From Sinomonas sp. ASV322 (GTDB taxonomy: Bacteria > Actinomycetota > Actinomycetes > Actinomycetales > Micrococcaceae): a stretch of 64,000 nucleotides of DNA. The stretch lies in the NCBI RefSeq assembly GCF_030908245.1, contig NZ_JAVFJJ010000002.1, forward strand, positions 124,001-188,000. Reading direction: 5' to 3'. A model generated the notes under the pieces. That model was not told the origin of the DNA and did not search any database. It saw only the letters and a list, made by a program, of their open reading frames with translations. Positions 1-33,246 of this stretch are shown piece after piece. Position numbers and translations under genes: made by a program. How positions within the stretch are numbered: position 1 is the first letter of the stretch; the number at the start of each line of letters is the position of its first letter.

Positions 1-2060
1 TGTAGACGGGGTTGCCGTTGGCGTCCAGAGTCGGCGCGCACGCGGCCAGCTGCTGATCCCACAGCATGCTGTGGGCCGTGGGAAGGATCGGGCTGCACAC
101 GGGCTGGGTGAGGGACGTGCTGCACACGCCCGGCGTGTTCGGCGGGAAGAACAGATCGGGCCGGAAGTCGGGGCCGCCCGCCGTGTAGTCGAGGAGGTTC
201 ACTCCGCGGACCACTTGCTGGCCGTTGGCGTTGTACTTGCACGAGATCGGGTTGCCCGAGGCGTCGAGCGTGCAGCGAGACAGGTCGTAGTTGTCCCAGT
301 TGTAGGTCACGTACCGCATCGTGTCGGGGTTGCTCAGCAGGAGGTGGCAGTCCGCCGCGGCGGAGGTTGCCGTCGCGGCCTGGCACCCCGACGTGTCGGT
401 GCCATTGACGCCGACGATCCGGATGATGTCACCGTTGGAGGCCACGATGGTCGACGCGTTCCGCGAGTGGACGTCGATCGGCAGCGTCCCGTCCGCGAGC
501 TGCTGGTTGGTCGTGTTCAGGCCGCCGATGTGCCCGACCTCGTTGTCCTCGGCGAGCTCGGTTCCGGCGCCGCTGAAGATGAAGTTGTGGCCGAGGTCTC
601 CCACCACCGAGGACTTGGGCACGTACGTGGGGTTCCCGTAGGCGTCGTAAGTCACGGAGTAGCTGCCTCCGGACGGCCGCTGGAACGGGTTGGTCAGGCT
701 GTAGAAGTCAGAGTTGCCACCCACGAGGTCGTCCTGGCCCATGCCGCCGAAGATCACGTTGTTGCCGGCGTTGCCCTCGATGTAGTTCGATCCATCCGTG
801 GCGCGCTCCACCGACGGGTACACCGTGAGTGCGCCCACGGCGTCGCACACGAGCGAACCTGGAACGCCCGTGCAGCCTGTCGGGCCGCGGAAGGCGCCCA
901 CGCGTTGCAGCTTCGACGTCGGGCTTCCCGGCGAGACCCAGTCGATCGAGCCGCCGCCCTGAATGGTGTCGTCGCCCATTTCGCCGAGCATGACGTTGCT
1001 TCCGCCCGCCCCGGCCATGTAGTCGTTGCCCCACGAGCCGAGCCACTTGAGGCCGTTGTCCGCGTCCATGTCCTGCCACAGGTTGGACACCTTGTACTCG
1101 GCCCACCAGGGGACATCATTCGTCGTGCGGTAGTTCTGGGCGATGCCGTTGGTCAGCAGCGCACCCGAGTTGTACGCGTCGACCGTGCCGCCGCACGGGT
1201 TGACCCGGTCGGAGCGGCTGTACAGGAGCGAGCCGCACAGCGACTGGAAGCGGCCGTTGGTCCAGTTCCCGTAGGTGCGCTGGATCGAGGCGTTGTCGCC
1301 GAACATCATGTTGTTCTGGCCGCCGCCCTGGATGGCGTCGTTGCCGGGGCCGCCGATGATCATATTGCGGCCGCGGCCGCCGTAGATCCAGTCGTCGGCG
1401 CCGTTCTGGAGCGCCTTCGAGTCGACGCTCAGGACGCCGATGCCGCCGTCGGTCTCGGTGTACGGGGCACCCAGGCCACCCGTGAGGAGCGTCGTCTGGA
1501 TCTTCTGGAGTTTCGTGGGCACGGGCTTGGTCGTGTCGCGCGCTCCGGACACGTCCTGCGTGATGAGGCCGAACTTGCCGAAGATGATGTTGTCGTCCTG
1601 GCCGATCGTCGTCCCGTTGACGCCCGGGAGCGTTCCGGGGCCCGCGCCGTAGATGAGGGACGGGCCGGCCTTGAGCGGGTCGTGGTCGGGGAACTGCGCG
1701 ATCGGGTAGCCCGCAGGCCCGTTGCCCTCCGTCGCGACCGTGAGGACGCGGGTGATGAGATCGACGTTGAAGCCCGCGCTGCCGTAGATCATGTTCTCGC
1801 CGCGCTCGCCGAAGATCGTGTTCGATCCCGAGCCGCCCGCGATCTGGTCGCCGGTCTGCGAGCCGATGAGGATGTCGTCGCCCGCGCCGCCGTACATCGT
1901 GACGCCGATGCTCTCGAGGTTGCCGTTCGCGTCGAGGCCCGAGAGCGCGTGCGCGTCGATGACGTTGTTGCCGCTGAATCGGAACGGGTTCGCGAGCGGG
2001 AAGATGAAGAACGGCGCGCTGTTGCCCACCCGGTTGAGGACGACGACGCTGTAGGCGCCC
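1..2060 (-). repeat. RTX (haemolysin-type calcium-binding) repeat region of the giant protein
   Basis: The last visible 690 or so residues contain Gly/Asp-rich nonapeptide-type repeats such as GGAGDDILIGSQTGDQIAGG, YGGRGRNMIIGGPGNDAIQG, GNAGNNVIFGGMGQDDLVGG and MAGAGGSNVMLGEMGDDTIQ. Such repeats form calcium-stabilised parallel beta-rolls in secreted proteins. Sequence between them is not repetitive. The protein does not end here, so any C-terminal anchor or secretion signal lies to the left of the window. Confidence 0.8.
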
Positions 2061-5000
2061 GTCGTCGTCGCACCCGGCGTCGTGACCGGGAAGGCGGGAC
2101 CGGCCGGGAAGTCAGCGAGCGAGAGCACGAGGTTGACGGAGATCGTGGTCGCGGTGACGGCCTTGACGATGCCGACGTACTGCGAGACGGCAGTCACGGT
2201 GAGCGTCTGCCACGGCATCGGCGCGATGACGGGGCCGTTGAGGAGCATCGTCTGGCGCGCACTGTCGAAGCCGGTGACGGTCCACACGCCGGGGACGCCC
2301 GAGATCGTGATCTGCATGCCAGTCGTGAACGCGGCATTCCAGGTGCCGGACGCGAGCGTGATCCGGTCTGTGCTGCGCAGGATCGACGCGGTCTGGACGA
2401 TCGGCACCGCGAGGCTCAGCGCGAGCTCCTGGCCCACGGCGAAGCCGTCGCTCAGGAACGAGCCGCTTCCCGTGCACGCCCCGCCGCACGAGTTGAGCGT
2501 GATCGTGCCCGTGTGGCCGTCGCTCGAGAGGCCGAGCGTGACGTTCGCACTCTCGATGTGCGGCATGGGCTTCGGGCCGAAGTTGTGCAGCGTGAGGTGC
2601 GTCGGATCGCCGCCGTACCAGACGCCGTCCTGCGACGTGTCTCCGTACAGGACGAGCGGCGAGGCGGGCCCGCCGCCGCCGGTCACGGTGATTGTGTCGC
2701 CGCCCATGCGGACCGCGCTCACGACGCCGGCCCACGAGGTGACGGCCACGAGCGCGCCGCCGTTGACCGTGATGGTCCCCGCGTTCGCATCGATCGCCGT
2801 GATGATCCGGTAGCCCGTCACGCCGTCGATGCGGACGAGTGTGCCCACCTTGAGGCCAGAGCCGGCCAGCGCCCCGGCCGGCAGGCCCGCGAAGGCGACA
2901 ACGCCGCCGTCGGACGTTGGCGTGATCGAACCGCTTCCGGCGACCCAGAGCCGGCTCACGGCGCTCACGACGCCGGCCAGGGGGCCCGGGGTGAGCGGCG
3001 CGCCGTCGACGATCATGATGGCGCCGTCGGACGGGTTGCCGTCGGCGTTTAGGAGGGTGACCCCAGCTGGGGTGCCGTTCGCATTCAGAACAGTGCCGTT
3101 CGCGAACTGGACGATGGTGCGGACGCCGACGCCCGGGATGTAGACCTGCTGGCCCGCGCGGAAGCCGAGGGCCTGCCACGCTTGGCTGTTGGCAATGTAG
3201 ATGCCATTGCCTGCGACGATGCTGAGCATGCTCTGCGTCGGCGCCCAGCCTGCCGGGAGCGGCGTGCGGAGCGCGCCGTTGCCCGCGTTGAGCTCGTCGA
3301 CGACCGACACTTGGCCCGTGAGCGGGCCTGCGGGCAGCGTGGTCGAGCCCGCGAGGAGCATGACGTCGCCGGGGAGGCTGCCCGGGCTGCCGCTGTTCGC
3401 GAAGCCCGTCACGGTGTAGAGGTGGCCGTCCGGCGCGTCGACGAGCTGGCCCGCGCGGAAGCCGAGGCCGGACCACGCGAGGCCGTCCAGGCGGACCAAG
3501 CCCTGGCTGCCGCTGACAGTCGTGACGCCGAACGTCCCGTTCAGCAGGAGCGGTGTGTTGCCGCCGCCCTGGACGGCCGTGATGCCGCCATGGTGGGCGA
3601 CCTGGCCGCGGAGGCCCGTGATCGGGTCGATGTCGCCGCCCTGGATGAGCGTGCTCTTGACGGTGAAGTTGTCGTTGCCCTGGCCCAGCATGATGTTCAG
3701 GACCTCGATCGTCGAGAGCGAGTTGTCCATCGAGAACTTGCCGGTGTTCGGGTCGACCGAGATGTCGCCGTAGCTGATGCCGCCCGGGAACGTGAGCGGC
3801 TCGCCCCACGGGAGACGGTGCGTGACCGGGTCCGCGAGGTACGAGAAGTCGAGGTCCGGGCCCATGTTGAGGCCCGTGATCGCCGTGGACGTGAGCGTTC
3901 CCGTGAGGTTCTCGCGCGCGCCGTCGTCGTACACGTTGAGCGTGTCGATCTGCTGCCACTCCGGCGGCTGCGCGGCCACGCGGAACGGCGGCGTGTTGCC
4001 CTCGTCCGGGAGGAGGATCGCGGCCCGGAGCGAGCGGTCCTCGGCCGTGTCCCCGCCGTCGACCATGAGCGGGCCGCGGATCTGGTCGAGGCGGTGGGCC
4101 TGCTTCGGGAACGTCACGAGGTTCGCGCGGCCGGCCGGGACGACCCAGTTGACGTCCGCGACGAGGTTCACCGTCTGCTGGATCCACCAGTTCGACGGCG
4201 TGAACGTGAAGGCCGCGGCCCATTGCGTCACGGTCCCGAGCGGGGCGACGGCGGCGGGCTTGGCCGTGCTCGTGAAGTACAGGACGTTGAGCGTCCCGCC
4301 GTTCGCCGAGCCGAACGACTGGATCTTGTAGAAGTTCGCGTCGCCGGAGATCTTGACGACCATGCCCTCCGTGAAGCCGCTGCTGAGCCAGCTCGTGCCG
4401 TCGTCGCGGGTCAGCGCGCCGGTCGCGGTGTTGTAGGTGAGCGTGTGGCCCGCGGTGCCCGTGAAGATCCCCGCGTCCTGGAGCTGGCTGATGACGACGC
4501 CCACGAACGGGTTGGCCCAATCGGCTCGCGCCACGGGGAGCGGGCGGTCCAGCGTGATCGAGGAGGCGGTGAGGCCCAGGATCTGGTAGTCGCCGTCGTC
4601 GGCCGTCCCGGTGCCGCTGATCCGGATCTTCTGCCCGATCTGGAACCCATCGCTCAGGAAGTTCCCGAGATCGGAGCCGTTGCCGAGGGTCAGTGTCGAG
4701 CCGGACGCGTTGATGACGCCGGTGAACGCCTGCGCCGCGCGCTGCCCGCCGTAGACCGCGTAGTTCGCGCCGCCGAACGTCGCGACGTCGACCTGCCCGT
4801 CGGTGAGCGCGAAGATCGTGACCGGGGCCGTCGGCGCGGAGTCGAGGCGCAGCGTGTACGATGCGCCTGTTCCCGGGATCGTGCACGCGGCGTTGCCGCA
4901 GGCCTGGACGAGCGTGCTGCCGTCGCGCTGCTGGACGAACACGCCGGCGGTCTTGTCGCTGATGACCTGGACGTCGACCCGCGCCCGGATCCGCGAGGCC

Positions 5001-26000: not shown

Positions 26001-29000
26001 AGGCCCGCCGCGGTGCCCGACGTCGAATCGGCCTTGCCGTTGACGTCCTTGCCGGACGTGTCCGAGCTCGTGCCCTTCGCGCCCGCCGCGCTCGCGGTCG
26101 ATGCGTCAGAGACCTGGGACGTGCCCTCGGCGAGGAAGCCGACGTCTGCGCCAGCCGTGAGCGAGCGGTCGAGGGAGGAATCGACCGCGTGGTTCGCGAT
26201 CGTCAGGGCGAGCGAGAGGCCGAGGGCGAGCGTGCTGCCGCCCTGCGCCGCGCCGTTGGCGGTGCCGGTCACGGTCGCGGTCTGGGCGGCGTGGAACGTT
26301 GCCCCCGCGGAGATCGTCGTCGCCGGGCCGGCCAGGATCGACGCAGTCGTCGAGACGTTGCTGATCGTGAGCGCGAGGGACGCCGCGAGGGACAGCGAGC
26401 CGGAGCCGCTCGCCGCCGCGCCGCCCGACGACGTCGTCGTCGCCTTGTCGCTGCCCGTCGCCGTGCCGGTGAGCTGATGCGCGCCCGTCACGGTCGCGCT
26501 CGAGCCGAGGCTCGCCGTCGTGTCGTCGTTGATGAGGTCGAGGGCCACGGACGCGCCGAGGCCGGACGCGCCGCCCGAGGCATCCGCCTTCGCCGCCGCG
26601 CTCGCCGTGTTCTCGGTCGCCTGGCCGGCCGTGAGCGTGACGTCGCCGGACGCCCCCGTGACGGTGGCGTTGATCGTGAGCGCCACGGTGCCGAGCACGA
26701 GCGCCTGCGTCTGGACGTTCACGAGGTTGAGCGCGAACGAGCCCGCGAGGCCGATATCGGCGCCCGCCGTCGCCCCCGAGGTCGCCTTCGCGGAGAGCGT
26801 GTTGACGTTGTCGGCGCCGAGCACGCGCTCGGTCGCGGACAGGGCGAGCGAGCCCGCATTGACGATCGCGCCTGCGGGGACGATCGCCTGCGTCGCGACG
26901 GTCACCTTGTTGATCGCGACGGCGGCGCCGATGCCGAGCGACGACGGCGACGTCGCGTCGCCCTTCGCCTCGGTCACCGAGTCGGCGTTCGTGTCCGCGG
27001 CGAAGGCGGCCGCGCCCGACGTCGTGAGCGTCATGCCCGCGGCGAGCTCCGCCGTCGTCGTCACGCCGACGATGCTGATCGCGATCGCCGCGGCGACGCT
27101 GATGCTGCCCGAGCCGCCCGAGGTCTTGTCGACCGTGGTCTTGGGCGTCGCACTCGTCGACGTCGTCTTGCCGCCGTTCGCGGTCTGCTTGCCCTTCGCG
27201 TCGCCGAGCGCGGCGTCCGCCTTGCCGTTGACGTCCTTGCCCGAGGTGTCGCTGCCCTCGCCCTGGGCGCCGGCCGCGCTCGCGGTTCCCGTCGTCGTCG
27301 TGGACTCGGTGTGGTGCGCCGTGAAGCTCGCCGACGCGGCCGAGAGCGTGCGGTCGAGCGGGGCGGACGACGTCGCGTCGAGGACCGTGAGCGCGAGGGC
27401 GATGCCGAGCGCGAGGGTCCCGCCCGAGGCCGCCATCGCGGCGCCCTTCGCGGTGGTCGTGGCCTTCGCCGTCTGGTCGGCGGTCGCGGAGACGGCTCCC
27501 GAGAGCGTCGTGGTGCCGAGGCTGGGATCGGCTCCACCGATTCCGGCGATGGTCGATACGTTCGCGAGCGTGATCCCGATGGCCGGCGCGAGCGAGATGT
27601 TCGCTCCGCCTGCTCCACCGTCGATCGCAGTCGTCAGCGTATCGCTGTTGGTCGCCTGGATGGTGAAGTTGTTGATGCCCGTGAGTGGGGGCCCGCGCGT
27701 GCCGAGCGCGAGCTCGTCCACTCCTGCGAACACTTGGTCCGTCACGAGGTTGAGGCCGATCGAGGCGCCCATGCCGAACGTGCCGCCGCTTCCGCCCGTC
27801 GACTGGGCCGACGTCGCCGAGGCGCCGTTCGCGGACGACGACGACGCCGTCGCCGCCGCGTTGCCCGAGCCGCCGAGGTTCACGCCGCCGAGCGGGTCGG
27901 TCGTCGTTGCGGTGGCCGCGTGGATGGCCGCGGTCGTCGAGAGGTTCGCGATGTTGAGCGCGAACGATCCCGCGATGCCCAGGCTTCCGCCCGCGCTGCT
28001 CGCGCCGGACTTCGCCGTCGCGCCCGTGCCGTTCGCGATCGGGGTGCCCGGGGCCGAGGGGTCGGCATGGTTGAGGGCCGTGAGGGTGAGGCCCGTCGCG
28101 GCGAGGCTCGCGCCCGCGCCGATCGAGGCCTCGTTGACGACCGTGGCCTTGTCGATCGCGATGGCAGCGCCGATCACGTTGCCGCTTCCGCCGGTCGTCG
28201 CGGAACCGTCCGCGCTCGCCTGCGCAGTCGTCGTGTTGGCCGACGCGTACGAGGCCTTGCCCGGCGTGCTGAGCGTCGTCGCGGGGGCCTGCTCGGACGT
28301 CGAGGACGAGGTCACGAGGTTGAAGGCCATCGCCGCGGCGACCGTGATCGGGGCGCCGCTGCTGTCGCTCGCGGCGGGCGTGCTGGCCGCGCCCGAGCCG
28401 CTTCCGCCGTTCGTGGACGACTTGCCGCCCGCGAAGCCGAGCTGCGAATCCGCCTTCTGGTTCGCCGTCTTGCCCGAGCTGTCGGTGCTCGTCGGGCTGC
28501 TCGTCGAGCCGCCCTGTGCACCCGCCGCGGAGGAGGTCGCCGTCGTCGACGTCGTCGACTTGCCGTCGGCGCTCATCGCGACATCGCCGCCTGCTGTGGT
28601 GCTGCGGTCGATCGACGAGTCGACGGCGTGCGTGGCCGACGTGAGGGCGAAGCTGATGCCGGCCGCGAGGCTCGCCCCGCTGCCTGCCGTGGTGCTGCCG
28701 GTCGCCGTCGTCGTCGCCGCCGCGGTCTGGATCGCGGTTCCGGTGAGCGCGCCCGCCAAGGCGAGCGCGGGGCCGGAGAGGATCGAGGCGAGGGTCTGGA
28801 CGTTCGAGATCGTGATCGCGACGACGCCCATGAGGGACGCGTTGCTGCCGCCCTGGGCGCCGCCTGTCGCGGAGGTCGTCGTCGCGTCGCTGCCGGTGGC
28901 TGAGAGGGTCAGCGCTCCGGCGCCCGTGAGGCCTGCGTCCTTCACGAGCCGCGCCGCGACGATCGTGTCGATGATGCCGAGGGCGATCGACGCCCCGATG

Positions 29001-32000
29001 CCAACCGATCCGCCGGACTGGGCCGCATTGGCGGTCGCCGAGTCGACGTGGTTGCCGGTGGCCTTGAGGGCGACAGCCGGTGCGACTCCGGCCGTCGCGC
29101 CCGTGAGCGCGTTGCCCGCGCCGCGGATCTCCGCGAGGGTCTTGCCGTTGACGAGCGTGAGGGCGAACGAGCCGGCCGCGCCGACGCCCGTGCTGGCCGA
29201 GGAGGCCTTGCCCGAGGTCGCGCTCGAGGCGAAGTTCGAGCCGCCCGTCCGCGTCTCGTCCGATTCGACCGTGACCGAGCCCGCCTGGATGACCGCGCCG
29301 CCCGCGATGAACGCCTCGGTCACGAGAGTCGCGACGCCGATGCCGATGCCGACCCCGACGCCGCTTCCGCTGCCATCGGTCGAGCTGCCGTCGCCGGTAG
29401 CGGTCGACGCGACCTGCGACACGGACTTGAGGAGGAGCGCGCCGGCCGTGACGAGGTTCGCGGCCTGGACCGCGACCGTCGTCACCGCGTTGAAGACGCT
29501 CACGGCGAGCGCGCCCGCGAGCCCGATGGCGCCGTCGGCCGTGGTCGCCTGGCCGTTCGCGCGGGACGGATCGTTGACCGGCTTGTCGTTCGCCGTCGAG
29601 CCGCCCTTGCCGGCCTTCGCGCTCGCGGTGTTCGCGCCGTCCACCGTGGCCGTGAGCGTGATGCTCGCGGCGTTCGTCGGCGTCGCGCTCGTCGAGTCGA
29701 TGACCGCCTGGGTCGTCTGGCTCAGGTTGACGACGGCGATGCCCGCGCCCGAGGTCGCGAGGCTCGCGTCGCCGACTCCGTTGAGGCCTGCGTGGTTCGT
29801 CGCGCCGATGTTCAGCGCGCCCGTGACCTCGAGGTGGGCCGTGTTCGTGACCTTGCTGACCGCCGTCGTGCTCACGGTGATGATCGCGACCGACGCGTCC
29901 TTCGACGCGGTGCCGCTCGAATCGGCCGAGCCTTCGCTCTTCGCGGCGTCGGAGCCCGGGGTCGCCCCCGCGTCGACCGACGACGACGAGCTCACCGTCG
30001 TCTTCCCGGTCGCCTTGACGACTGCCGTTCCCCCGATCGTGACCTCGGCGTCCGAGGAGACGATCGCGGCGTCCGCGTACTTCTTGACGAGCGTCACGGG
30101 GCCGACGGTCGACTGCGAGGAGAGGACGACGTCGCCCGTTGCCGTGAGCTGGGTCGTGCCGAGGAGGGAGACGAGCGCCTTCGAGGAGACGTTGACGGCG
30201 TACGCGAGCGTGTCCGTCGGATCCGGGGTGACGCTCGCGGTCGCCTGGGCCGTGAAGGCGCCCGAGGTGACCTGGCTGTCCTGGAGGGTGACCTCGACGT
30301 CGCCGCAATGGGTCGCGAGGGTCGCGCAGCTCCGCGGGTTCGTGAGCGGGTTGCTTGGGCCGCCGGTCACGGTGTCCGCGGCCGCGAGAGTTACATTGCC
30401 GGCCGCGAGAGCCGTTCCCGACGTGAGCGCGATCTTCTGGAAGTCGAGGACGAGGGCCGCAGCGCCGAGCGAGATTGTGCCGCTCAGGGTGATCGTGTTC
30501 CAGCCGGCGCCGCCGTCGACGGTGAGCGAGGAGGTGGGCGCCGAGAACGTCGTGGACTCGAAGCCGCCGTTCGTGCTCGCGAGCGTGAGAAGGCCACCCG
30601 CCTGCGTCAGGGTGGCCTTGTCGTCGCCCGAGCCGAGCACGAACTTCAGGTCGGTTGCGGTGCCCGTGTTCGTGATCGGCTCGATGTCGGTGTAGTTGAT
30701 CGTCGTCGCATCGAGGTAGAGCGTCCCCGTCGTGCCGTTGACGGCCACCGACCGTTCGCTGACGACCGTGCCCGCCGTGACGAGCGTGTCGAAGCCGGGG
30801 CCGCCGTCGAAGCTCACCGTGATGTTCGGGTTGGCCGTGCCGCGATCGACCGTGAGCGTGTCGTCACCGATCGTCCCCATGACCGAGATGCTCGAGATCG
30901 TGGACAGGGCGCGCGACTGGCCCTCGAACGTGACCGTGCCGTCGGCGTGGAACGCGAGGGTCGCCGCCGTCGAGTGCATCTGGAGGGCCCACGGCGTGGG
31001 TGCCGCCGAGGTCGGGGCCGGTGACGCCGAAGTCGGGGCCGGTGACGCCGAAGTCGGGGCCCCTGCCGCCGAGGTCGGGGCCGGCGACGCCGAAGTCGGG
31101 GCCGGCGACGCCGAAGTCGGGGCCGGCGACGCCGAAGTCGGGGCCGGCGACGCCCAGGTCGGGGCCGGCGACGCCGAAGTCGGGGCCGGCGACGCCGAAG
31201 TCGGGGCCGGCGACGCCCAGGTCGGGGCCGGCGACGCCGAAGTCGGGGCCGGCGACGCCGAAGTCGGGGCCGGTGACGTGCTCGACGTCGTCGTGGTGGA
31301 TGACGCCGGGGCCGTCGCCGTCGAAGTCGCCGAAGTCGGCGCCCCTGCCGCCGAAGTCGGGGCCGGTGACGTGCTCGACGTCGTCGTGGTGGATGACGCC
31401 GGGGCCGTCGCCGTCGAAGTCGTCGAGGTCGGGGCCCCTGCCGCCGAAGTCGGGGCCGGTGACGTGCTCGACGTGCTCGGAGCCGGGGTCGGCGCGGGGG
31501 CCGGGACGGTGAGCGTCGTCGTCGTCCGTCGCTCGCCGGGGTTGAGCACCCGGCTCATGAGGTCGGAGCCGCCCTCGATGTCCGCGAGGCCCAGGACGTG
31601 CCCGAGCTCGTGGGCGATGACGGTCTGGAGGTCCATCCGGTTCGTGGCGACCGAGCCGACGCTCCAGCCCCACCCCGCCGCGTTCGGGCTCACCGTGATG
31701 GCGGTCCCGTTCGTGACGGCGAGGGTCGTTCCGGAGAGCGGGGCGATCGCGAAGTGTGCGGCGCTCACGTCGTGGCCGGACCACAGCGCGGCGGCAGCCC
31801 CGTAGACAGATTGGATGTCCGCGAGCGTGATGGCGGTGGTGACAGGGGCCGCGGGAAGCGATGGGGCGTCTTGGTGATTCGCGAGCTCTGGTCCACTGAG
31901 GGACCATTGCCCCGTTCGGAAGGCCGCGACGTTGAAGGTCCCGCTCGGTGTGGCCATCGCGAACGCCATGGCGAACGCTGCCGAGACGGCTACAAGCCGC

Positions 32001-32086
32001 TCAACAACCCTCCAGAGCGCAGACGAGACCACGGATCGGCCACCGATCACTAGGGACGATGCGATGCATCGTCGACCACAGAACAT
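1..32086 (-). CDS. Giant secreted modular protein: metzincin domain, beta-strand repeats, RTX repeats (C-terminus beyond window)
   Basis: One minus-strand frame stays open from about 32086 to the left edge, at least 10,695 codons. I spot-checked that frame at about 31612, 28483, 24880, 17770, 11989, 6037 and 1393, and it always gave sensible protein. The N-terminus has a hydrophobic stretch (about residues 31-45, LVAVSAAFAMAFAMA) typical of a signal peptide. Then come a metzincin protease domain (about 60-190), a PAPTSAS linker (about 200-362), Thr/Ala/Val/Gly-rich beta repeats to about residue 6,500, more varied beta domains with modules of the form GDxVxY..PIxGLxDGxxYxV, Calx-beta-like segments (about 8,840-8,890), and RTX-like GGxGxD repeats from about 10,000. 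Likely an extracellular or surface adhesin or matrix protein with proteolytic activity. The start is uncertain: ATG at 32086 directly follows a GTGGGGA; GTG at 32050 or 32032 is possible. The function is inferred from architecture only. Confidence 0.9.
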   Translation of the reverse strand, partial: MFCGRRCIASSLVIGGRSVVSSALWRVVERLVAVSAAFAMAFAMATPSGTFNVAAFRTGQWSLSGPELANHQDAPSLPAAPVTTAITLADIQSVYGAAAALWSGHDVSAAHFAIAPLSGTTLAVTNGTAITVSPNAAGWGWSVGSVATNRMDLQTVIAHELGHVLGLADIEGGSDLMSRVLNPGERRTTTTLTVPAPAPTPAPSTSSTSPAPTSAAGAPTSTTSTATAPASSTTTTSSTSPAPTSAAGAPTSATSTATAPASSTTTTSSTSPAPTSASPAPTSASPAPTWASPAPTSASPAPTSASPAPTWASPAPTSASPAPTSASPAPTSASPAPTSAAGAPTSASPAPTSASPAPTSAAPTPWALQMHSTAATLAFHADGTVTFEGQSRALSTISSISVMGTIGDDTLTVDRGTANPNITVSFDGGPGFDTLVTAGTVVSERSVAVNGTTGTLYLDATTINYTDIEPITNTGTATDLKFVLGSGDDKATLTQAGGLLTLASTNGGFESTTFSAPTSSLTVDGGAGWNTITLSGTISLGAAALVLDFQKIALTSGTALAAGNVTLAAADTVTGGPSNPLTNPRSCATLATHCGDVEVTLQDSQVTSGAFTAQATASVTPDPTDTLAYAVNVSSKALVSLLGTTQLTATGDVVLSSQSTVGPVTLVKKYADAAIVSSDAEVTIGGTAVVKATGKTTVSSSSSVDAGATPGSDAAKSEGSADSSGTASKDASVAIITVSTTAVSKVTNTAHLEVTGALNIGATNHAGLNGVGDASLATSGAGIAVVNLSQTTQAVIDSTSATPTNAASITLTATVDGANTASAKAGKGGSTANDKPVNDPSRANGQATTADGAIGLAGALAVSVFNAVTTVAVQAANLVTAGALLLKSVSQVASTATGDGSSTDGSGSGVGVGIGIGVATLVTEAFIAGGAVIQAGSVTVESDETRTGGSNFASSATSGKASSASTGVGAAGSFALTLVNGKTLAEIRGAGNALTGATAGVAPAVALKATGNHVDSATANAAQSGGSVGIGASIALGIIDTIVAARLVKDAGLTGAGALTLSATGSDATTTSATGGAQGGSNASLMGVVAITISNVQTLASILSGPALALAGALTGTAIQTAAATTTATGSTTAGSGASLAAGISFALTSATHAVDSSIDRSTTAGGDVAMSADGKSTTSTTATSSAAGAQGGSTSSPTSTDSSGKTANQKADSQLGFAGGKSSTNGGSGSGAASTPAASDSSGAPITVAAAMAFNLVTSSSTSEQAPATTLSTPGKASYASANTTTAQASADGSATTGGSGNVIGAAIAIDKATVVNEASIGAGASLAATGLTLTALNHADPSAPGTPIANGTGATAKSGASSAGGSLGIAGSFALNIANLSTTAAIHAATATTTDPLGGVNLGGSGNAAATASSSSANGASATSAQSTGGSGGTFGMGASIGLNLVTDQVFAGVDELALGTRGPPLTGINNFTIQATNSDTLTTAIDGGAGGANISLAPAIGITLANVSTIAGIGGADPSLGTTTLSGAVSATADQTAKATTTAKGAAMAASGGTLALGIALALTVLDATSSAPLDRTLSAASASFTAHHTESTTTTGTASAAGAQGEGSDTSGKDVNGKADAALGDAKGKQTANGGKTTSTSATPKTTVDKTSGGSGSISVAAAIAISIVGVTTTAELAAGMTLTTSGAAAFAADTNADSVTEAKGDATSPSSLGIGAAVAINKVTVATQAIVPAGAIVNAGSLALSATERVLGADNVNTLSAKATSGATAGADIGLAGSFALNLVNVQTQALVLGTVALTINATVTGASGDVTLTAGQATENTASAAAKADASGGASGLGASVALDLINDDTTASLGSSATVTGAHQLTGTATGSDKATTTSSGGAAASGSGSLSLAASLALTISNVSTTASILAGPATTISAGATFHAAQTATVTGTANGAAQGGSTLALGLSLALTIANHAVDSSLDRSLTAGADVGFLAEGTSQVSDASTASAAGAKGTSSDTSGKDVNGKADSTSGTAAGLQNANSTKTTTAPTSPKATTDSGGSTGGSGTIAVAAAISVTLSTQTVTSVLATGLTLATTGKATFAAAADTDAKATADGSATSSSGAGIGAAVAINLANATVLASVVAGATANVGSLVLSATERVVGTDSINSFDAEAKSGATAGSDIGLAGSFALNLVNVSATATLAGTVSLPATGDVTITAGSSTENIAKATAATNITGGTLGLGASVALNLINDSVAGTIGAGATLTGGHAVAITATNSDKATTNAEGGAKATGQTTLSLAASLALTISEVSTTASILAGTALSLAGGITAHADQTATVTATAKGASSGGSTLGLGIALALTIADHTVDSSLYRNTTAGANVSFAADGLSQSSSTATASAAGAEGQGASGKDSSGKDVNQKGDQSLGTAKGLQSTNSGGKTTSSSSTPSTKQDSGGTNITVAAAVAINLVTSTTTALLAPSTSLAVNGGGSASFATTNHTDAVATADGSASNSSTLGIGAAVAINLATVRNEASLGIGSQLSASGLTLSATMRTAGSSTQHTITATASAGAANTSGTLGLAGAFALNVANLTTLATIHADATTTLPAGTTGNVQLMGGAASMTAASSSNSTTKAKAKQDGTGTVGIGASVGINLVNDTVYAGIDQVADPSRGPPLTGAGTVTIKATTTSVIDNEVDAGGKGGGVTVTPAVAVTIATLRTSASLGASSTALTASGAVQATATQNATTTTIAKGDTTVGSTAGFGISLALAIVDDGVDSGSARSITSSGAVSFQASGTSATTTTAEAAAEGAGGQTTSGASGKDSSGTDVNQKADSKLGAAKQTQSDNSNGQTTSTSSTPKAASNDNSGASISVAAAVAINVVTTASRTWFANGVVIHAGGVVTLASTADTDARATGRGDSTADASVGIGAGVSVNKVDITNTALTGTATITGTGLVVSAGMTPGGVGDVLRVWNAADGAWKTIDSGKQLPGPSAGDLAAAKAQSGSGASAHNAGIYKYDGSSAKWILQTDAGASIASGSTLPTTPSANQLFVLMAPKDGQPAGSVWQWNGSAWVFVTKLAYDDFDSLPADSIEKDTLFNLTAQDGSNAPGIYKRSASHTWTATTITVTDGDHLPASPTDGQVFRLWEHEVTATAYAGVGKATSVGIAGALAINIVSEHTAALLQTGASATLTTAGVSLTALANSYDLAKATSKAEVGSATGVGASVALTVLPDNTVRAGAQDGATLTGGTSLTIDAMGFRELPTTAEGGTSGGTAVTPVVALVVSVGDTVEARLGTPAAGGPGYSVSAGGSGAVVVHATHVNRISTVGDAEAAGKSTAVGIDVSVNAVVSWSTTATIARNVSAASVDVLASSEITSEAKSVASAKGSSDSDSQSGDSKANEQANGSNPNTQSTKSSTAGMPSSSGGTNGSNGATGANSQSSSQSGSSGGGTGVAAAIGVNWVNATTSGSIAAGVTVTATSGAVSVQGLMLAAATARGMGSAIDLQKDTGVGAAIGLNVQILTTTATIGAGAHVTGQTGVTVKAGTPDSKHNTFVIWGISAGAGNNSAGVAASAAVQILLLTTTASVGAGAVVSAPAGGITIAAADNVIFQNIALSGGFSKGNGTAIGGAISVNYFEITTKAFADSSAATPTSLDASGAISVTAAESLAGQEPETPLKGKITLPNVTNVAAGGGASSGGAAVSGSFVIQIFSIDTQAYLGAGAKVNQTIGLGGTGQSLTVMATGGYTLIDFAGALSLSKSSAAVGLTVIVDVFNVNAAASIGSGALVTAGGTVTVDAESAENMTEVSVAGGVSGSSAAVTGAVVVVVLNQGGSSPKVTALIGAGASVTGSGGVAVTASKTGTVNLAAGNLAIGGGSAGVGASAVVVVRDSTVDASVGAGATVHAGGSGLVVSATQDAHYLFLAVGGAGGNSAGVAGSVVVNVTGDTTKAHIDASSTITQGTSTAVLAQDTTTVFSLAGVLTAGGTAGVGAGVDVEVLTKDTEAWIGHATTVSGSGNLSVDAISSEKITSVSVGGGFAGTAAVNVNAAVPAISITTKAYLQDGAAAGDGVTATMGGTVRVNADEALTANVIAGNISASGTAAVGAAVAVPVITKETHAWIGNYAVVSGAGATGVDVASGSYTVTPHDPRFAPSDIAGGTTIHVDAHGFANGDQVQYDAGYGLPISPLVQGGQYYVKVIDPNHFQLYSTPDLSGSPITLSGGTGESHRVFKTTEANVTQDQTPRFNPDNAVNLGTNSIHLPYTLGTINDNDAVVYSSGGGAPIGGLVDGGTYYYKGVVGGFQLLDKPSDKGGHVIALGAGWTGRSHSLARQGDAPAGDASAMGPRDIAKGTTTGFRGVAVTANNSDSVGAFGVGLGFSGTAAVTLAGAVAVVTVHTSAHIGQNAKVNCGATCASNVAGADAGQSVQVSAANQFYQLGIAFTLAIAGSAGVSIPVAVRVVNLDTYAYIGTGSTVNARNSISVTADGKDTILSFAVGAGGGTVGVAGTVAVTVLTVHTFACTGTPGGSDLFACTGNGATLSAGNNVVVAATDATKLLLITVALAGGYVGVGAAVGVASLTKQVRAYLGAGSTVDAFAQGAPLAGVPDGTLTGSQSFSGVIVHAGSSENVFGLVPAIAGGFVGVAGGVQVTLLTTSTVASIGGYSSINTVANAAAGAATVQGVSVTATDAFKSLTIAGGAAGGFVGAAGGVDIGTANSSVLAHIDGPSTVKALGNVEVYALSTKDVSTFAVALGVGAVGIAASVSVWSVGTTPTSTYYDSNGGNDRGAWSSSTTYNKGDVVTFNGTQYTATSDIAAGGSDPTVDTAHWRGPSDAMSGNAGSSVTSAGSTAQGGGAGGFQSHTLDGTTAGSASPWSSATAYSSGQLVTFGGSTYSATTDIAAGGADPAHNSAWRLDSGTESSTNARLSSRLLAVNSQISAAAPSSNLGSLALSTAPTGGTAATIDASVDAGGHVNVWAIDRLHVLGVAGAGAAGLGGLGVSVLVLNVSSATNAGIGGTATIKAGAGAGGNVSVKARMDDETVTGVGFVGAAGAVAIGAQVVVINDSSTQNAHIDSSTSASTLIGTVTGQGVTQAGGGIDVATYAKRTANSYAIGVGLGGVAVGVSAAVVNVTGGASATVGNIAVGAAGPVDHLNVSISDNATNDLLAVAFQAGVGGGFAGDLAFVTLGGTASASSGAHGTLGAGGLSVTADGVHTATAKTLNVATGLLAVSVTVARVRNSRSTEALVGPTSAITFSAPAPFLVKATASNSATATAPGGGGGGVQVTVLLAFATVSGHTTAEADGSASNATTITVQAFADNTATASSTTIGVSVIGLSGGVATADITSDAKTEATIGSGASLSGNGAVLIEAGTRNAGNQAVATATLGTFGGVAGVAVLVAAAHDNGAARVRIYGAVTTTSTATTPGAAAIGVHASGTNLATADILTITVAGAFTGSGSMTFAEVGSSAAVEVLGQSGGALNANGLVEVTATSNNHAESSTVLGAGGFAALGVSVPTAKVDGGTNIHLGGTSITGTALTATTKSSNLAEATTKAITMGAIAAQIASASATVGTNATTEAGIGSANVGTGAITVTATSTDTATAQSSGASGAALSVQVFTPDAEIHGSTRAFIAAGSTVVAGALTVLANATPSATGTAKMLGLAAISGTGATPVANIDGTTEVYIGGSSSVSLGTGTADLEATRNANATVTNVDVAVTLVKIAFVDLEATTAGTIAAHIDDGSTLTAGSLILHAGGTSTPTATNGPSGNISVGLASGAYVKTHATDSTTVKAYVGPEGAAADTSHPTTVTVSGTGTAASVVASLTSAPMAFTDMISVSLGFSLVIVTETTTSAPTVKAFLGGSAKVSATAGTVEFIASTNATAIADGRGIGVSAGLAAGATTSTSEFTPTVSAFTVGGGELHGTGVTVSARLNVDSAGHAIRPSVTLAGDSTPSTVDPAYARVRLTGIGVGAGVTAASATATSKPEVSTTVASGTLLSGPGWVNVASVAFNSATAAADSLAVGVVAGIGLAQPTAETGGHVKTDFNGTATGVTTVTVGSTVDSSAVVHGHAAGGGLGAGVTDGTYSATTDMGVSAGVGGTISGSSDVSVQALERNSTTADYSAVSFGGLAAVGTSTVNATDSSSVAANVTGSVTSGGTLSVLAYHNFDGSNFLTDHLVDASGSALTAAIGLAVSNNNLYAKAASTTTATLAAGGTLAAPGGVINVQAMGGNFAKSKLKNAGGAILNVSVSSNPDAEASGTTTASILGNVRVLSGATSGPGAATLKVLAKGNDTAVAGMDESGGGLLSVTSSTSTSHGTPSVGVVLGGSTSVIRVTGDISAQSVGLTDSDASTSSATGGAINVTTFSATATMNPTSTASVTGGASIKAAGAITVDASANPPLPPASDGTFDGVTGVNDAADTITFTANHNANTGDVVTYDAQGHPVVPGLTDGAQYSVIVTSPTSLQLGAVFTGANVNSATNVIDFGLRQHHLHEGDVVVYSAVPLGAGGVTSDVGGLTSNTRYRVHVLDPYRIKLQPIGFTSASVAVNATSVNGGTGLITATNSFSNGDFVTYYQPTPAVTFSSGQVNVVWDGGAKKWVVASGGDVNDVYFAVEDPSNPGTFLDMGFSTGTRVYYAPKSGSTIGIGAGYYYLIRVNGQEYKFADSLCHATGLAGDCGTSSNQAQVALTLAPDTSVAGKAVVQQLWRDLNAPISGLQDGHGYFVVGCPSTGCTSSFSLANSAGGAANTYALDSAQTGGLHTFARDGINISAPTVPAGVADVSNLVYTLVEDIAPASAAGAQRLHGIGDNIPFGATSGDQVVSASATGGGGGAISVSTAASLVQVTSTVGATVGNGAMLDGGTVVVTTHGIVSGKTVSSNDSGGLISVNSASADTHLYMGNAILIDTNATLNAAQGVTVSANSELHPTMIASSSSGGLFAGGGSGETILADYSTTVTVKGSVTAGTAATIESHTAVYAYGKGTADVGGLGVDGTTNLAIRVGRVDGSWIPGSAAVATTQTTIGGSVTGRSVAVGSYVDALRLTGTSSSKATAFGANSQATTAVDVSGLTQTVLSSGAALTASVSTALNAEYRGINIDSYASSTCHCFGGRTSPTASSDISTTAQVAGMSGSTITTSDLTVTVDQLVDHYLRHTDRSGGFLDFGGSDSGGGSQNFRRWIFWESTVIMLGEPNPWVEVDAAGNVTKLVNATVRDLNGHVFTDDPFNNIHTVGQLTGSQFSVDDILYNHGANARFLANVPTNISGGSAPLGEIWGGLGQFQFQQTWNYVKLINGSNLNMIVNKIDVVNTLNPPVVEVRVQKIDAGTGHSVSGLSPPSPGPGPSFDFDIKYTFPPTLVLIKNTCAYTCAGQNPFIRLDNFIENPIGTTDVENASGDILAGPLGAVATKVIRTNILTLSAPHGNIGHQAAQHPVPGTQDAERNPIAVELVRYQSVDGAYHDPVVNADAGGDLVLDLTANRRTDEALGSAFTVTINRLTAGNDLDVVVNDSKNGNDLATNVLVTVNAYTPATSNYHYVFPTGYNPALGADSGPIGSTVSNPGSGQYETHYEPDTADPNLERILRAFGTTTSTLDSAYVFAEARSGDDLDVCHVSTSSAYAAQEPKYCATTAINDATHVVSAATPTTTVTFTINTDVAWTGGSPKGTPVNDPSMFGGYLAADVAQIFLTTNGKITATELAGDMLVGHIDSTQNDVVLTSPQRILDANSQPSIDVTGVNITMTAGTGGVIGGIGVPSDFLEINVDVLRTNTGVLTAIDTASTNTRGVFVTEIGDSNPATTDDLRIHLVRTRGDVSLATVKGSVIDANGPFGQTAAEVIGNTIDIKAVGGSIGAADGTNDLDISSGRFTTPWSTASTTPAATVAFEADTGVFVTEIPDTVDPSDLGAPAPMNVVLARTFTGNVRLTVAKTKARGEDLNLLPCAASTAGGRQYCSLLFVENAPRTTANGQIQRGLIQADQGWVLLRVADNVTTDGYNAAGGGSVATDANPALVASIRAAQWIDIYGDFANTAPGSALGILDPGWGTIMHLHGELWSGTAQTTNGTAVFAGTQTNACVNLLDKDGHACNLTRIFGNTDSDIISLDQTYLRNITRVYGSNTPTPFGSYAPSGDGEDFMFVNQLQTMDVADGMTLTLDGQSGSNTYVINTTGSQPCFAGDPTGSTCHNYVINVLDTGAPTDGQSTLIVNGYDSPLSGYDAHGNPYPTDDIFLLRRSRFIASTPTSNTAGERADDPGFVALLHGQLGARTPLFTGNLSLCFTATGCGAGTAPGRTLMGAPVGTFAQTLVGLRVHLGGPTAGVWTGDYTVASVDPNGTWITFAETLPVGVSLTTEQVPTSNVALANVTVSLLSNDVTTSDPTGNPAIRTQAYERINYDTGIRGRLVVNGLGGNDVFASDDVTVPTTLDGGTGNNTFQIGQIYGRQRDANAFSSNLGISADGITRDTSGGDLNPQDVFATVATTRGWVSRGASAPLTAVGGGGDNLFTVYSNQAPLRLEGVSGNNQFVVRAFALAEVRTGHGLPASMGGKSCTDPSVTLTDAERATCDIVWINAADQIAMPRLTSGFSTAAESDIRTGSGQNQVMYNLNAPVSIDGGTGFNKVVILGTEFADHIVVTAKAIYGAGMSVKYTNVQLLEIDGLEGDDTIDVLSTAPGMVTRVIGGLGSDTINVAGDVAGDVFALNIDGTSSTVNHGVVSTDPNYNGIVADGVPVTVARPGQGQVVITESGGFTAVYEGGCYQLSPTSSTCGTAPPLPSIDSYTVHLAAHPVCAGLSDAQCKVYVTVSAAYPLSAAHAQLTVGNLPDGAPMGNDGDTILVAANLTGSALADFYRQIVLGGASKAVSNRSLVLVFDGTNWNADQTVYVYAVDDHHAEGTRVLTVNHSVISADPNFDGAIVRNVEATVYDNDQADILIGQTDPTTGHLDNGTTVLAGTTVTEVSDQITVQLAMAPAAGQTVVVRLVPGDNMVCLSSADTRFAVAQGAAFSDPTACGASPYVYTVTFTSANWYQPVIVTVHARNVLAPMDPHNTAIIMSIDPSTTDAAYLAAASRIRARVDVQVISDKTAGVFVQQRDGSTLVQACGNAACTIPGTGASYTLRLDSAPTAPVTIFALTDGQVDVATFGGANYAVYGGQRAAQAFTGVINASGSTLTLGNGSDLGNFLSDGFQIGQKIRISGTGTADDGDYQILGLTASSITLDRPLPVARADWANPFVGVVISQLQDAGIFTGTAGHTLTYNTATGALTRDDGTSWLSSGFTEGMVVKISGDANFYKIQSFGSANGGTLNVLYFTSTAKPAAVAPLGTVTQWAAAFTFTPSNWWIQQTVNLVADVNWVVPAGRANLVTFPKQAHRLDQIRGPLMVDGGDTAEDRSLRAAILLPDEGNTPPFRVAAQPPEWQQIDTLNVYDDGARENLTGTLTSTAITGLNMGPDLDFSYLADPVTHRLPWGEPLTFPGGISYGDISVDPNTGKFSMDNSLSTIEVLNIMLGQGNDNFTVKSTLIQGGDIDPITGLRGQVAHHGGITAVQGGGNTPLLLNGTFGVTTVSGSQGLVRLDGLAWSGLGFRAGQLVDAPDGHLYTVTGFANSGSPGSLPGDVMLLAGSTTLPAGPLTGQVSVVDELNAGNGALRTPLPAGWAPTQSMLSIVAGNGIYIANSQAWQALGFRAGQQVYIPGVGVRTIVQFANGTVLNANGTPAGVTLLNADGNPSDGAIMIVDGAPLTPGPLAGVVSAVSRLWVAGSGSITPTSDGGVVAFAGLPAGALAGSGLKVGTLVRIDGVTGYRIITAIDANAGTITVNGGALVAVTSWAGVVSAVRMGGDTITVTGGGGPASPLVLYGDTSQDGVWYGGDPTHLTLHNFGPKPMPHIESANVTLGLSSDGHTGTITLNSCGGACTGSGSFLSDGFAVGQELALSLAVPIVQTASILRSTDRITLASGTWNAAFTTGMQITISGVPGVWTVTGFDSARQTMLLNGPVIAPMPWQTLTVTAVSQYVGIVKAVTATTISVNLVLSLADFPAGPAFPVTTPGATTTGAYSVVVLNRVGNSAPFFIFPLANPFRFSGNNVIDAHALSGLDANGNLESIGVTMYGGAGDDILIGSQTGDQIAGGSGSNTIFGERGENMIYGSAGFNVDLITRVLTVATEGNGPAGYPIAQFPDHDPLKAGPSLIYGAGPGTLPGVNGTTIGQDDNIIFGKFGLITQDVSGARDTTKPVPTKLQKIQTTLLTGGLGAPYTETDGGIGVLSVDSKALQNGADDWIYGGRGRNMIIGGPGNDAIQGGGQNNMMFGDNASIQRTYGNWTNGRFQSLCGSLLYSRSDRVNPCGGTVDAYNSGALLTNGIAQNYRTTNDVPWWAEYKVSNLWQDMDADNGLKWLGSWGNDYMAGAGGSNVMLGEMGDDTIQGGGSIDWVSPGSPTSKLQRVGAFRGPTGCTGVPGSLVCDAVGALTVYPSVERATDGSNYIEGNAGNNVIFGGMGQDDLVGGNSDFYSLTNPFQRPSGGSYSVTYDAYGNPTYVPKSSVVGDLGHNFIFSGAGTELAEDNEVGHIGGLNTTNQQLADGTLPIDVHSRNASTIVASNGDIIRIVGVNGTDTSGCQAATATSAAADCHLLLSNPDTMRYVTYNWDNYDLSRCTLDASGNPISCKYNANGQQVVRGVNLLDYTAGGPDFRPDLFFPPNTPGVCSTSLTQPVCSPILPTAHSMLWDQQLAACAPTLDANGNPVY
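17385..17778 (-). other. Two CBM5/12-like carbohydrate-binding motifs within the giant protein
   Basis: Two aromatic-rich modules interrupt the beta repeats at about residues 4770-4815 and 4852-4900. The first reads TTYNKGDVVTFNGTQYTA, then SDIAAGGSDP and HWRG. The second reads ATAYSSGQLVTFGGSTYSA, then TDIAAGGADP and AWRL. The pattern (Trp, Tyr-x-x-Gly-Asp-x-Val, Gly-x-x-Tyr-x-Ala, Gly-x-Asp-Pro, terminal Trp) is that of chitin/cellulose-binding CBM5/12 modules. Binding of an insoluble polysaccharide is inferred, not shown. Confidence 0.6.
23500..28500 (-). repeat. About 400-residue super-repeats inside the giant protein
   Basis: A hydrophilic marker resembling DSSGKDVNQKADSxLG recurs with its first Asp codon at bases 28483, 27250, 26062, 24880 and 23650 (residues about 1202, 1613, 2009, 2403 and 2813). 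Successive spacings are 1233, 1188, 1182 and 1230 bp, all multiples of three. The marker is followed by a Lys/Thr/Ser spacer and then ITVAAAVAINLV-like strands. A diverged sixth copy (DSQSGDSKANEQANGSN) lies near 21910-21960. Between markers, shorter units of about 60-90 residues carry a GxGAAxAINxAxxxTxA signature, the pattern of bacterial beta-strand repeat proteins. The nested periodicity indicates growth by duplication. Confidence 0.8.
31002..31481 (-). repeat. 21-bp x13 and 93-bp x2.2 tandem repeats encoding a PAPTSAS linker
   Basis: Bases 31002-31274 are thirteen head-to-tail 21-bp units, most reading gacgccgaagtcggggccgg on the plus strand. Bases 31275-31481 are 93-bp units starting at 31275, 31368 and (truncated) 31461. 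All units are multiples of three, so copy-number change keeps the frame. In the gene's frame they encode SPAPTSA heptads, some with Trp for Ser (PTWASPA), and Thr/Ser-rich blocks. This is a flexible Pro/Thr/Ser linker between the protease and the repeat body, and a likely length-variable site. Confidence 0.85.
31520..31910 (-). other. Metzincin (snapalysin/matrixin-like) zinc protease domain of the giant protein
   Basis: About residues 60-190 of the giant protein. HELGHVLGLAD (residues 159-169, bases 31612-31580) fits the metzincin zinc site HExxHxxGxxH/D: His159 and His163 bind zinc, Glu160 is the catalytic base and Asp169 is the third ligand. Asp in that place is characteristic of snapalysin (M7); most matrixins use His. 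Eight residues on, SDLMSRVL gives a Met-turn (Met177). The stretch before it, with DIQSVYGAAAALWSGHDV, is compatible with a short protease domain. No cysteine-switch propeptide is evident. Placement right after the signal peptide means it would be exported first. Residue numbers assume the ATG at 32086. Confidence 0.75.
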
Positions 32087-32358: not shown

Positions 32359-33246
32359 TCACGAATGTGGAATTGCGCTGAATTGCGCTGGAAGCGCTTC
32401 CGATTCGCCGATCACAACCGTCCCACCAATGTCGGGATCGCGCACGATTCGCGCGCTGAAACCCGCATCCGCGAAAAGGGCCGCCGTCCCACTCGATTGG
32501 TGCTTGCTCGTCTCGATGAGCAGGTGCCCACCGGGCGCGAGCCACTCCCCCGCCCCGGCCGCGACGCGCCGCTGGAGGTCGAGGCCGTCGGCACCCCCGT
32601 CGAGCGCGGCCCTCGGCTCGTAGTCGCGGGCCTCGGGCGGCATGAACGCAATCGCGCTGCTCGGCACGTAGGGGGCATTCGCCGCGATGACACTGACGCG
32701 ACCGCGCAGGCTTCGCGGCAGCGCCGCGAACAGGTCCCCCGCGTGGGCCTGGCCACCGAACGGCCCGACGTTGCGGCGCGCGACCTCGACGGCGATCGGG
32801 TCGACGTCGGCCGCGTGCAGCTCGACGCCCGGCACCGCGCTCGCCACAGCCGCCCCCACGGCGCCGCTCCCGCAGCAGAGGTCGACGACGACGGGCGCGG
32901 AACCGCCGTCGTCGGCCGCCTTTGCGGCGGAGACGGCGGCTGCCGCAAGCGCGGCAGCCTCGCGCGCGAGCAACTCGCTGCGCCTCCGCGGGACGAACAC
33001 GCCGGGCTCGACGGCGATGCGGAGCCCGTGGAACTCGGCCCAGCCGAGTACGTATTCGAGAGGCTCACCCCCGATGCGGCGTTCAGCAAGCGCTTCCAGA
33101 ATTGGTCCTGAACGCGCCGCCTCTCGGAGGAGCTGAGCCTCGTCTTCGGCGAAAACGCACCCCGCGGCACGCAGCCGCGCGACCAGCGGATCGCCCGCGC
33201 TTGTCACACGCGACGACGATCCGAACTCTGGCTCCTCGAAGGTCAC
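32359..33246 (-). CDS. PrmC/HemK-related protein-(glutamine-N5) methyltransferase-like protein
   Basis: 295 residues. SAM-dependent class I methyltransferase related to PrmC, which methylates the GGQ glutamine of release factors. Visible are the PrmC-type N-terminal helical region with GGEPLEYVLG (residues 59-68), the SAM motif DLCCGSG (122-128), AADVDP (145-150) and the catalytic-loop motif NAPYVP (190-195). True PrmC has NPPY; the Ala variant marks the actinobacterial PrmC-like paralogue family whose substrate is not established. It starts with GTG (33246) and faces dodecin divergently across 58 bp. The giant gene lies 272 bp downstream on the same strand and probably has its own promoter. 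Confidence 0.82.
   Translation of the reverse strand: MTFEEPEFGSSSRVTSAGDPLVARLRAAGCVFAEDEAQLLREAARSGPILEALAERRIGGEPLEYVLGWAEFHGLRIAVEPGVFVPRRRSELLAREAAALAAAAVSAAKAADDGGSAPVVVDLCCGSGAVGAAVASAVPGVELHAADVDPIAVEVARRNVGPFGGQAHAGDLFAALPRSLRGRVSVIAANAPYVPSSAIAFMPPEARDYEPRAALDGGADGLDLQRRVAAGAGEWLAPGGHLLIETSKHQSSGTAALFADAGFSARIVRDPDIGGTVVIGESEALPAQFSAIPHS

Follow-up and report, generated by a model that had tools for sequence, protein, structure and literature searches.

A 35-kb gene of Sinomonas that may encode an exported, fiber-like giant protein

Is a reading frame that stays open for some 32 kb of actinobacterial DNA a single gene, and if so, what might its product do and how did the gene come to lie where it does? 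These questions are raised by a contig of Sinomonas sp. ASV322, of which a stretch of 64,000 nucleotides, here called the window, was analyzed (C12:124001-188000 of a 33-contig, 4.34-Mb assembly labeled G000). Its list of open reading frames (ORFs) includes a minus-strand frame at 2..32086 that encodes 10,695 amino acids (aa) and is open at the window edge. According to the original prediction, this frame is one giant gene and the apparent plus-strand genes on top of it are shadows. We find that the frame is one real gene under purifying selection. The gene is intact, and it seems reasonably probable that it encodes an apparently exported, fiber-like protein of ∼11,830 residues, in which a C-terminal half of the type found in LEPR-XLL proteins stands behind a head suited to a cell with one membrane.

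The reading frame and its shadows

In the adjoining contig stretches, the frame continues beyond the window edge and reaches a stop codon at contig position 120552 (window coordinate -3448). A search for this stop in the flanking sequence had been proposed with the original prediction, whose figure of >10,695 residues holds as a minimum and understates a full length of about 11,830 aa. Counted from the ATG at 32086, the frame has 11,844 codons with 0 internal stops, and the joined 104,000 bases contain 0 N. This ATG is unlikely to be the true start. Because residues 1–18, counted from stop to stop, are unmatched in alignments with two orthologues (G037 and G154), the start is probably the GTG at 32032, giving 11,826 residues. 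It is residue 19 of the ATG frame, and the initial M of the orthologues (MR.SVLWKG) falls opposite it. A promoter and terminator scan upstream of the giant gene found neither.

Evidence for a gene comes from the ratio of nonsynonymous to synonymous substitution rates (dN/dS). Over the whole frame this ratio is 0.227, 0.226, and 0.200 in comparisons with G037, G154, and G071 (11,770, 11,745, and 11,373 aligned codons, respectively), and it stays between 0.121 and 0.364 in all 72 segments of 500 residues (24 for each of the three orthologues). The longest plus-strand ORFs lie in the antisense frame with codon boundaries matching those of the gene, and for that frame dN/dS is 1.44–1.61. Of the 16 plus-strand ORFs of at least 300 aa over the giant gene, 14 are interrupted by a stop in one or more of the three orthologues. 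The view of the plus-strand genes as shadows is thereby borne out.

Some observations weigh against so simple a reading. In a second antisense frame, whose third codon positions fall on those of the gene, dN/dS is 0.35–0.39, and two plus-strand ORFs (15903-16808 and 25014-26477) have no stop in the three orthologues, the latter aligning at 190 of 487 codons in G071. Because the third-position-matched frame contains 207–212 stop-containing codons, we take its ratio to reflect the true constraint on the gene itself. Extreme shadow ORFs also lie antisense to other giant genes, reaching 5,552 (G071), 6,404 (G514), and 5,192 aa (G312) from stop to stop. A caution for GC-rich genomes follows from these data: an antisense frame may stay open for thousands of codons and still be nothing but a shadow.

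An assembly artefact or a chance open frame in GC-rich DNA would be another way to obtain such a locus. The antisense strand is open for as many as 6,404 aa in G514, so that ORF length by itself is poor proof, and the linker of the giant protein contains long exact DNA repeats. Nevertheless, purifying selection is uniform over the gene, most of the long plus-strand ORFs are stopped in orthologues, and independent assemblies hold equally open frames, including two that consist of a single contig (G154, 12,217 aa; G312, 10,436 aa). The artefact explanation was rejected for the bulk of the gene on these grounds and is very improbable. The long exact repeats are confined to the linker (aa ∼195–370), where 111 codons start a repeated 24-mer. 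Because only 2 codons elsewhere do so, doubt about assembly collapse is limited to linker length, and collapse could hardly alter the rest of the gene. The concern about collapse or frameshift that accompanied the original prediction is otherwise answered by the independent assemblies. We regard the existence of the gene and its relatedness to the giant proteins described below as nearly certain.

Relatives, modules and probable movement between genomes

Homologues were sought with residues 7001–7833 of the giant protein, and the Sinomonas genome itself is included in each of the counts that follow. Carriers number 5 of 15 genomes of the genus, 4 of 149 in the family sample, at least 7 of 396 in the order sample, and at least 5 of 396 in the phylum sample. 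The last two counts are lower bounds because no more than two candidates were scored in each genome, and three of the five phylum-sample carriers are 23%–26% matches in ∼500-aa frames. A 333-aa middle piece has relatives in Sinomonas cellulolyticus (84%) and Microbacterium hibisci (53%).

Ten uncut homologous frames of 10,436–13,361 aa are present in nine other assemblies, and one further frame ends at a contig edge (G514, at least 10,417 aa). Measured from stop to stop, the single frames span 12,235 (G037), 12,217 (G154), 12,237 (G153), 11,456 (G071), 10,699 (G006), 10,436 (G312), 13,361 (G429), and 11,102 aa (G387). The first ∼230 codons in G387 are unlike coding sequence, so its length may overrun the true start. 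G613 has two giant frames in tandem, 13,159 and 11,695 aa from stop to stop and 264 bases apart (G613:C45:47121-121952), beside which a third frame, open for at least ∼1,687 aa and running off the analyzed stretch, begins with an export-like N-terminus. The Sinomonas giant was predicted to be among the largest proteins of any actinobacterium; of the eleven further homologous frames found here, five are longer, reaching 13,361 aa from stop to stop, and actinobacterial polyketide synthases can also be longer. G153 is a genus mate that agrees with Sinomonas sp. ASV486 (NZ_JAVFJK010000016.1), and G071, from another genus of the same family, agrees with Arthrobacter horti (NZ_JAVALS010000001.1). 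Since the rpoB genes of G153 and G154 are identical to two decimals, these genomes were counted as one lineage. Among the matches listed in a literature search, which did not extend to most subscription journals and preprints, no paper on this giant family in Sinomonas or Micrococcales was found.

Orthologue length varies by modules of 397–398 aa in the super-repeat region. Relative to G000, G071 has 398 residues fewer at ∼1772, whereas G037 carries an extra 398 at ∼2361 and G154 an extra 397 at ∼2356. The remaining gaps of 10 residues or more in these alignments are of 10–39 residues. The gain and loss of modules rests on these alignment gaps, from which G153 was left out; counts by a strict super-repeat pattern are uneven (five in G000, four in G037, three in G071, five in G154, and five in G153).

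The gene and its host genomes tell different histories. The rpoB gene of G006 is 96% identical to that of G000, compared with 95% for G037 and 92% for G071. In three blocks of the giant protein, however, identity to G000 is 49/46/57% for G006, whereas it is 88/87/79% for G071 and 88/86/78% for G037. G006 groups with G514, from another family, in all three block trees with a support of 1.000. In five genus mates that lack the giant (G149, G151, G152, G155, and G156), the genes on either side of it in the Sinomonas genome adjoin, ∼20–560 bases apart as judged by tblastn ends. Ten stretches from non-carriers (11.7–20 kb each) give no match to the giant at E≤1e-8. Because of this patchy distribution, the conflict with rpoB, and the empty site in five relatives, the gene probably moves between species as a solitary unit. 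Horizontal transfer as such is likely.

The G037 giant is bounded by two different genes of this neighborhood, those of G154 and G153 lie close by, and that of G006 is ∼19 kb from the same dehydrogenase-like gene (named by sequence reading). Since the giant sits at differing spots in these genomes, either the neighborhood received the gene more than once or the gene shifted. We observed that the D-hydroxyacid-dehydrogenase-like and SDR-like neighborhood (G000:C12:111000-120500; names again by reading) holds the giant at more than one spot in Sinomonas, and it is possibly an insertion hot spot. In Arthrobacter horti (G071), none of the Sinomonas neighbors was seen beside the giant gene.

The patchiness and empty sites could also mean that this is mainly a mobile gene that brings little benefit, spreading as a large cargo and frequently being lost, and a homologue split into 6,747 + 2,189 aa on a Rhodococcus plasmid would suit this explanation. 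We consider it improbable, because dN/dS is 0.20–0.23 over the gene and <0.37 in every segment, and eleven other homologous frames lack an internal stop. The plasmid (NZ_CP110618.1 of Rhodococcus antarcticus, 54,865 bases) devotes about half of its length to these two coding sequences, and the Arg/Pro-rich end of the 6,747-aa one looks out of frame.

Domain content and proposed function

The original prediction placed a protease, repeats, carbohydrate-binding motifs, and RTX units in one extracellular-type chain. Pfam and NCBIfam matches support this combination. The feature coordinates are collected in the table.

Features of the giant gene and its surroundings (window coordinates; aa, residue of the giant protein)
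Feature	Coordinates	Strand	Basis and remarks
Giant coding sequence, part in window	1..32086	-	ORF list, adjoining stretches, dN/dS; 11,844 codons (ATG 32086) or 11,826 (GTG 32032)
N-terminus resembling an export signal, aa 19-50, basic residues followed by VAVSAAFAMAFAMATPSG	31937..32032	-	Reading by eye; similar in orthologues
Small metzincin-like domain, aa ~84-190, HELGHVLGLAD (aa 159-169), LMS downstream	31517..31837	-	Pfam Peptidase_M10; limits by eye
Pro/Thr/Ser/Ala linker, SPAPTSA-type, aa ~191-364	30995..31516	-	Translation, exact-repeat scan
Five super-repeats of ~400 aa each, aa ~880-2880	23447..29449	-	Self-comparison, orthologue gaps, motif pattern
Densest run of ~50-60-aa repeats, LktA_tand_53 type, aa ~3541-5060, predicted stacked beta strands	16907..21466	-	NF012206, repeat model, AlphaFold2
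CBM5/12 module 1, aa ~4770-4800	17687..17779	-	Pfam PF02839, 40.2 bits over 2 stretches
CBM5/12 module 2, aa ~4856-4890	17417..17521	-	Second PF02839 stretch, placed by motif scan
Middle body, aa ~6227-8229	7400..13408	-	Whole-protein comparison; homologous to Pseudosulfitobacter LEPR-XLL protein (30.8%)
Body block B, aa ~8333-9148	4643..7090	-	37.4% to LEPR-XLL protein; 44-52% to six more distant matching actinobacterial frames
Start of C-terminal RTX body, aa ~10022-11559, continues beyond window	1..2023	-	Pfam HemolysinCabind; 39.6% to LEPR-XLL protein
Longest plus-strand ORF, 2141 aa, shadow not gene	18581..25006	+	6, 1, and 1 stops in three orthologues; dN/dS
Upstream flanking gene, methyltransferase-like	32359..33246	-	Pfam MTS 36.6 bits; adjoins the neighbor at the giant's other end in five non-carriers

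Metzincins are recognized by a zinc site of the form HExxHxxGxx(H/D) and a downstream Met, and both elements appear in the putative N-terminal protease domain. Pfam Peptidase_M10 scores 27.1 bits (cut-off 24) on a 400-aa N-terminal piece and 23 bits, below the cut-off, on a 5000-aa piece. The HExxHxxG motif is present in 9 of the 12 homologous frames, the Sinomonas giant included. In G429, where Pfam found no family in 6,578 aa of the N-terminal half, the metzincin was seen by pattern only. Another metzincin-like motif of this frame (HELGHLLGLDH) lies near residue 13,213 and precedes a hydrophobic tail.

Repeats account for much of the chain, with self-similarity spanning aa 2 to ∼6584, low-complexity matches included. 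NCBIfam NF012206 (LktA_tand_53) scores 77 bits against a cut-off of 50 in four stretches, and a purpose-built hidden Markov model of the repeat found 21 copies in the whole protein at a domain E<0.01. An AlphaFold2 model of aa 4160–4770 has a predicted local distance difference test score (pLDDT) of 67.9; the best Foldseek hit with it has E 0.021, with no match at 0.001. A fold of the middle body (aa 7040–7850) had a pLDDT of 34 and was discarded. RTX nonapeptides are recognized by PF00353 (HemolysinCabind) with 125.2 bits (cut-off 23) in six stretches. RTX units thus lie in the window as predicted, but part of the block is beyond it, including the best Pfam stretch (aa ∼11,013–11,045). After the RTX body follow weak LamG-like and Calx-beta-like stretches, also outside the window, and then a C-terminal 96-aa piece. 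The idea that these 96 aa are a common targeting domain was rejected, as the sole copy in the genome is the giant's own.

Other searches returned little. NCBIfam and Pfam found no family in aa 5001–9000, and no other enzyme domain exceeded its cut-off in either collection (3keto-disac_hyd, 20.8 bits versus 26.8). In PDB sequence searches, the RTX piece matched three RTX-type chains and the metzincin piece had a best E of 0.03; the C-terminal 645 aa gave none at E≤0.1, and the profiles A1 and A2 none at E≤1. The motif L[PA].TG is absent from the last 120 aa of the giant protein and of 10 of the other 11 frames. The G312 frame (G312:C1:55255-86565) carries a related body with a wall-anchor-like end, namely a LAATG sorting-type C-terminus, and is without HExxHxxG.

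Judged by its domain content, the protein would most likely be a calcium-stiffened adhesive or matrix fiber. The Sec system would export it, and the Gly/Ala/Thr/Val repeats may fold as a long beta-solenoid-like stalk. The RTX and Calx-beta-like parts could bind extracellular calcium and thereby stiffen the far end, while the CBM5/12 and LamG-like modules might hold polysaccharides such as chitin. The metzincin-like domain may trim the giant protein itself or its neighbors. Overall, the protein would serve in attachment or in building a matrix, and we rate the chance of an adhesive function as about even.

A different role, that of a secreted degradative or predatory weapon, would have the metzincin-like head and the carbohydrate-binding modules attack cells or polymers, with the repeats providing only reach. 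The metzincin-like motif in 9 of 12 frames, the CBM5/12 modules, and the LktA-type repeats are all compatible with such a weapon, and phyla with host-associated lifestyles are reported to have huge proteins frequently (PMC11573180). This role is unlikely, given that a single small enzyme-like domain is found among ∼11,830 residues, that no conserved partner gene is evident by eye in the flanks, and that C-termini differ among the lineages of giant homologues. A calcium-stiffened fiber remains our preferred reading.

Comparison with known giant proteins

The closest known system is a plasmid-encoded LEPR-XLL protein of the seawater alphaproteobacterium Pseudosulfitobacter sp. DSM 107133 (WP_114295156.1, 12,918 aa). 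It was the best of six plasmid records matching a 1333-aa query (window:7087-11086:-), all at <60% identity, with 32.0% identity over 89% of the query; 50,697 phage records contained no match. Three long collinear blocks relate the two proteins: giant residues 6229–8231, 8335–9150, and 10024–11561 (stop-to-stop numbering) correspond to 7260–9256, 9251–10076, and 11158–12655 of WP_114295156.1, with identities of 30.8%, 37.4%, and 39.6% (1040 bits for the third). This homology of the giant body was found against one LEPR-XLL protein, and the body is not part of NCBI's NF012209 definition.

The proteins are alike in these blocks, in their similar length, and in having a metzincin-like stretch of the same type, but differ in their heads. 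Only WP_114295156.1 has a LEPR-XLL head, with LEPR at residue 54. In the Sinomonas giant, the head model (NF012209) has no match at E≤0.01 in aa 1–5000, 5001–9000, 9001–11844, or the first 400 aa, whereas the Pseudosulfitobacter head, used as a positive control, scores 31.5 bits on the LEPR-8K model. The Pseudosulfitobacter protein carries the metzincin-like stretch in its C-terminal part (HEFNHMLNSPH) and the Sinomonas giant in its N-terminal part; G429 has one near each end. Genes for an HlyD-type adaptor and a site-2 protease directly follow the Pseudosulfitobacter gene; none is evident by eye in the Sinomonas flanks.

These comparisons permit a broader scenario, which we offer tentatively and at slightly less than even odds. 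A body of 10,000–13,000 residues would have crossed between diderm and monoderm phyla, with its C-terminal half kept and its head swapped: the diderm side has LEPR-XLL with HlyD and site-2 protease neighbors, the monoderm side a Sec-type signal with a metzincin. In actinobacteria, it would travel as a single 31–40-kb gene that has entered the same Sinomonas neighborhood more than once and whose fiber length changes in ∼398-aa steps.

Other systems share parts of this architecture. The filamentous LktA_tand_53 repeat proteins (NF012206) have 53-residue tandem repeats in common with the Sinomonas giant, which scores above the cut-off; these repeats are only one part of the giant, which also has metzincin-like, CBM5/12, and RTX parts. 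The name LktA derives from a leukotoxin. RTX adhesins of the LapA kind resemble it in the RTX block, the weak Calx-beta-like stretch, and giant size. Unlike them, the Sinomonas giant begins with an export-type N-terminus, and inspection by eye of the gene calls within 9 kb, the part of the genome that was searched, revealed no type I secretion genes. Gram-negative RTX exoproteins are reported to have type I export in common (PMC3034196). The Mobiluncus mulieris adhesin (7,651 aa; PMC10619420), described as having a cell-wall anchor and 51 cross-linked Ig-like domains, is likewise a giant repetitive putative surface protein of a Gram-positive-type bacterium; the Sinomonas giant differs in its repeat type and in having no LPXTG-like motif. 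Huge bacterial proteins are reported to be mainly synthetases and surface proteins (PMC11573180).

The cross-phylum relatives and the mobility are additions to the original prediction. The locus provides an example of a 35-kb single gene that is intact, under selection, and apparently mobile. Because a cultured Gram-positive genus provides one of the two heads behind which this body occurs, the roles of export head and fiber would be separable. With its LEPR-XLL-related body and without a LEPR-XLL head, the Sinomonas giant looks like an actinobacterial offshoot of a class of giant proteins already known.
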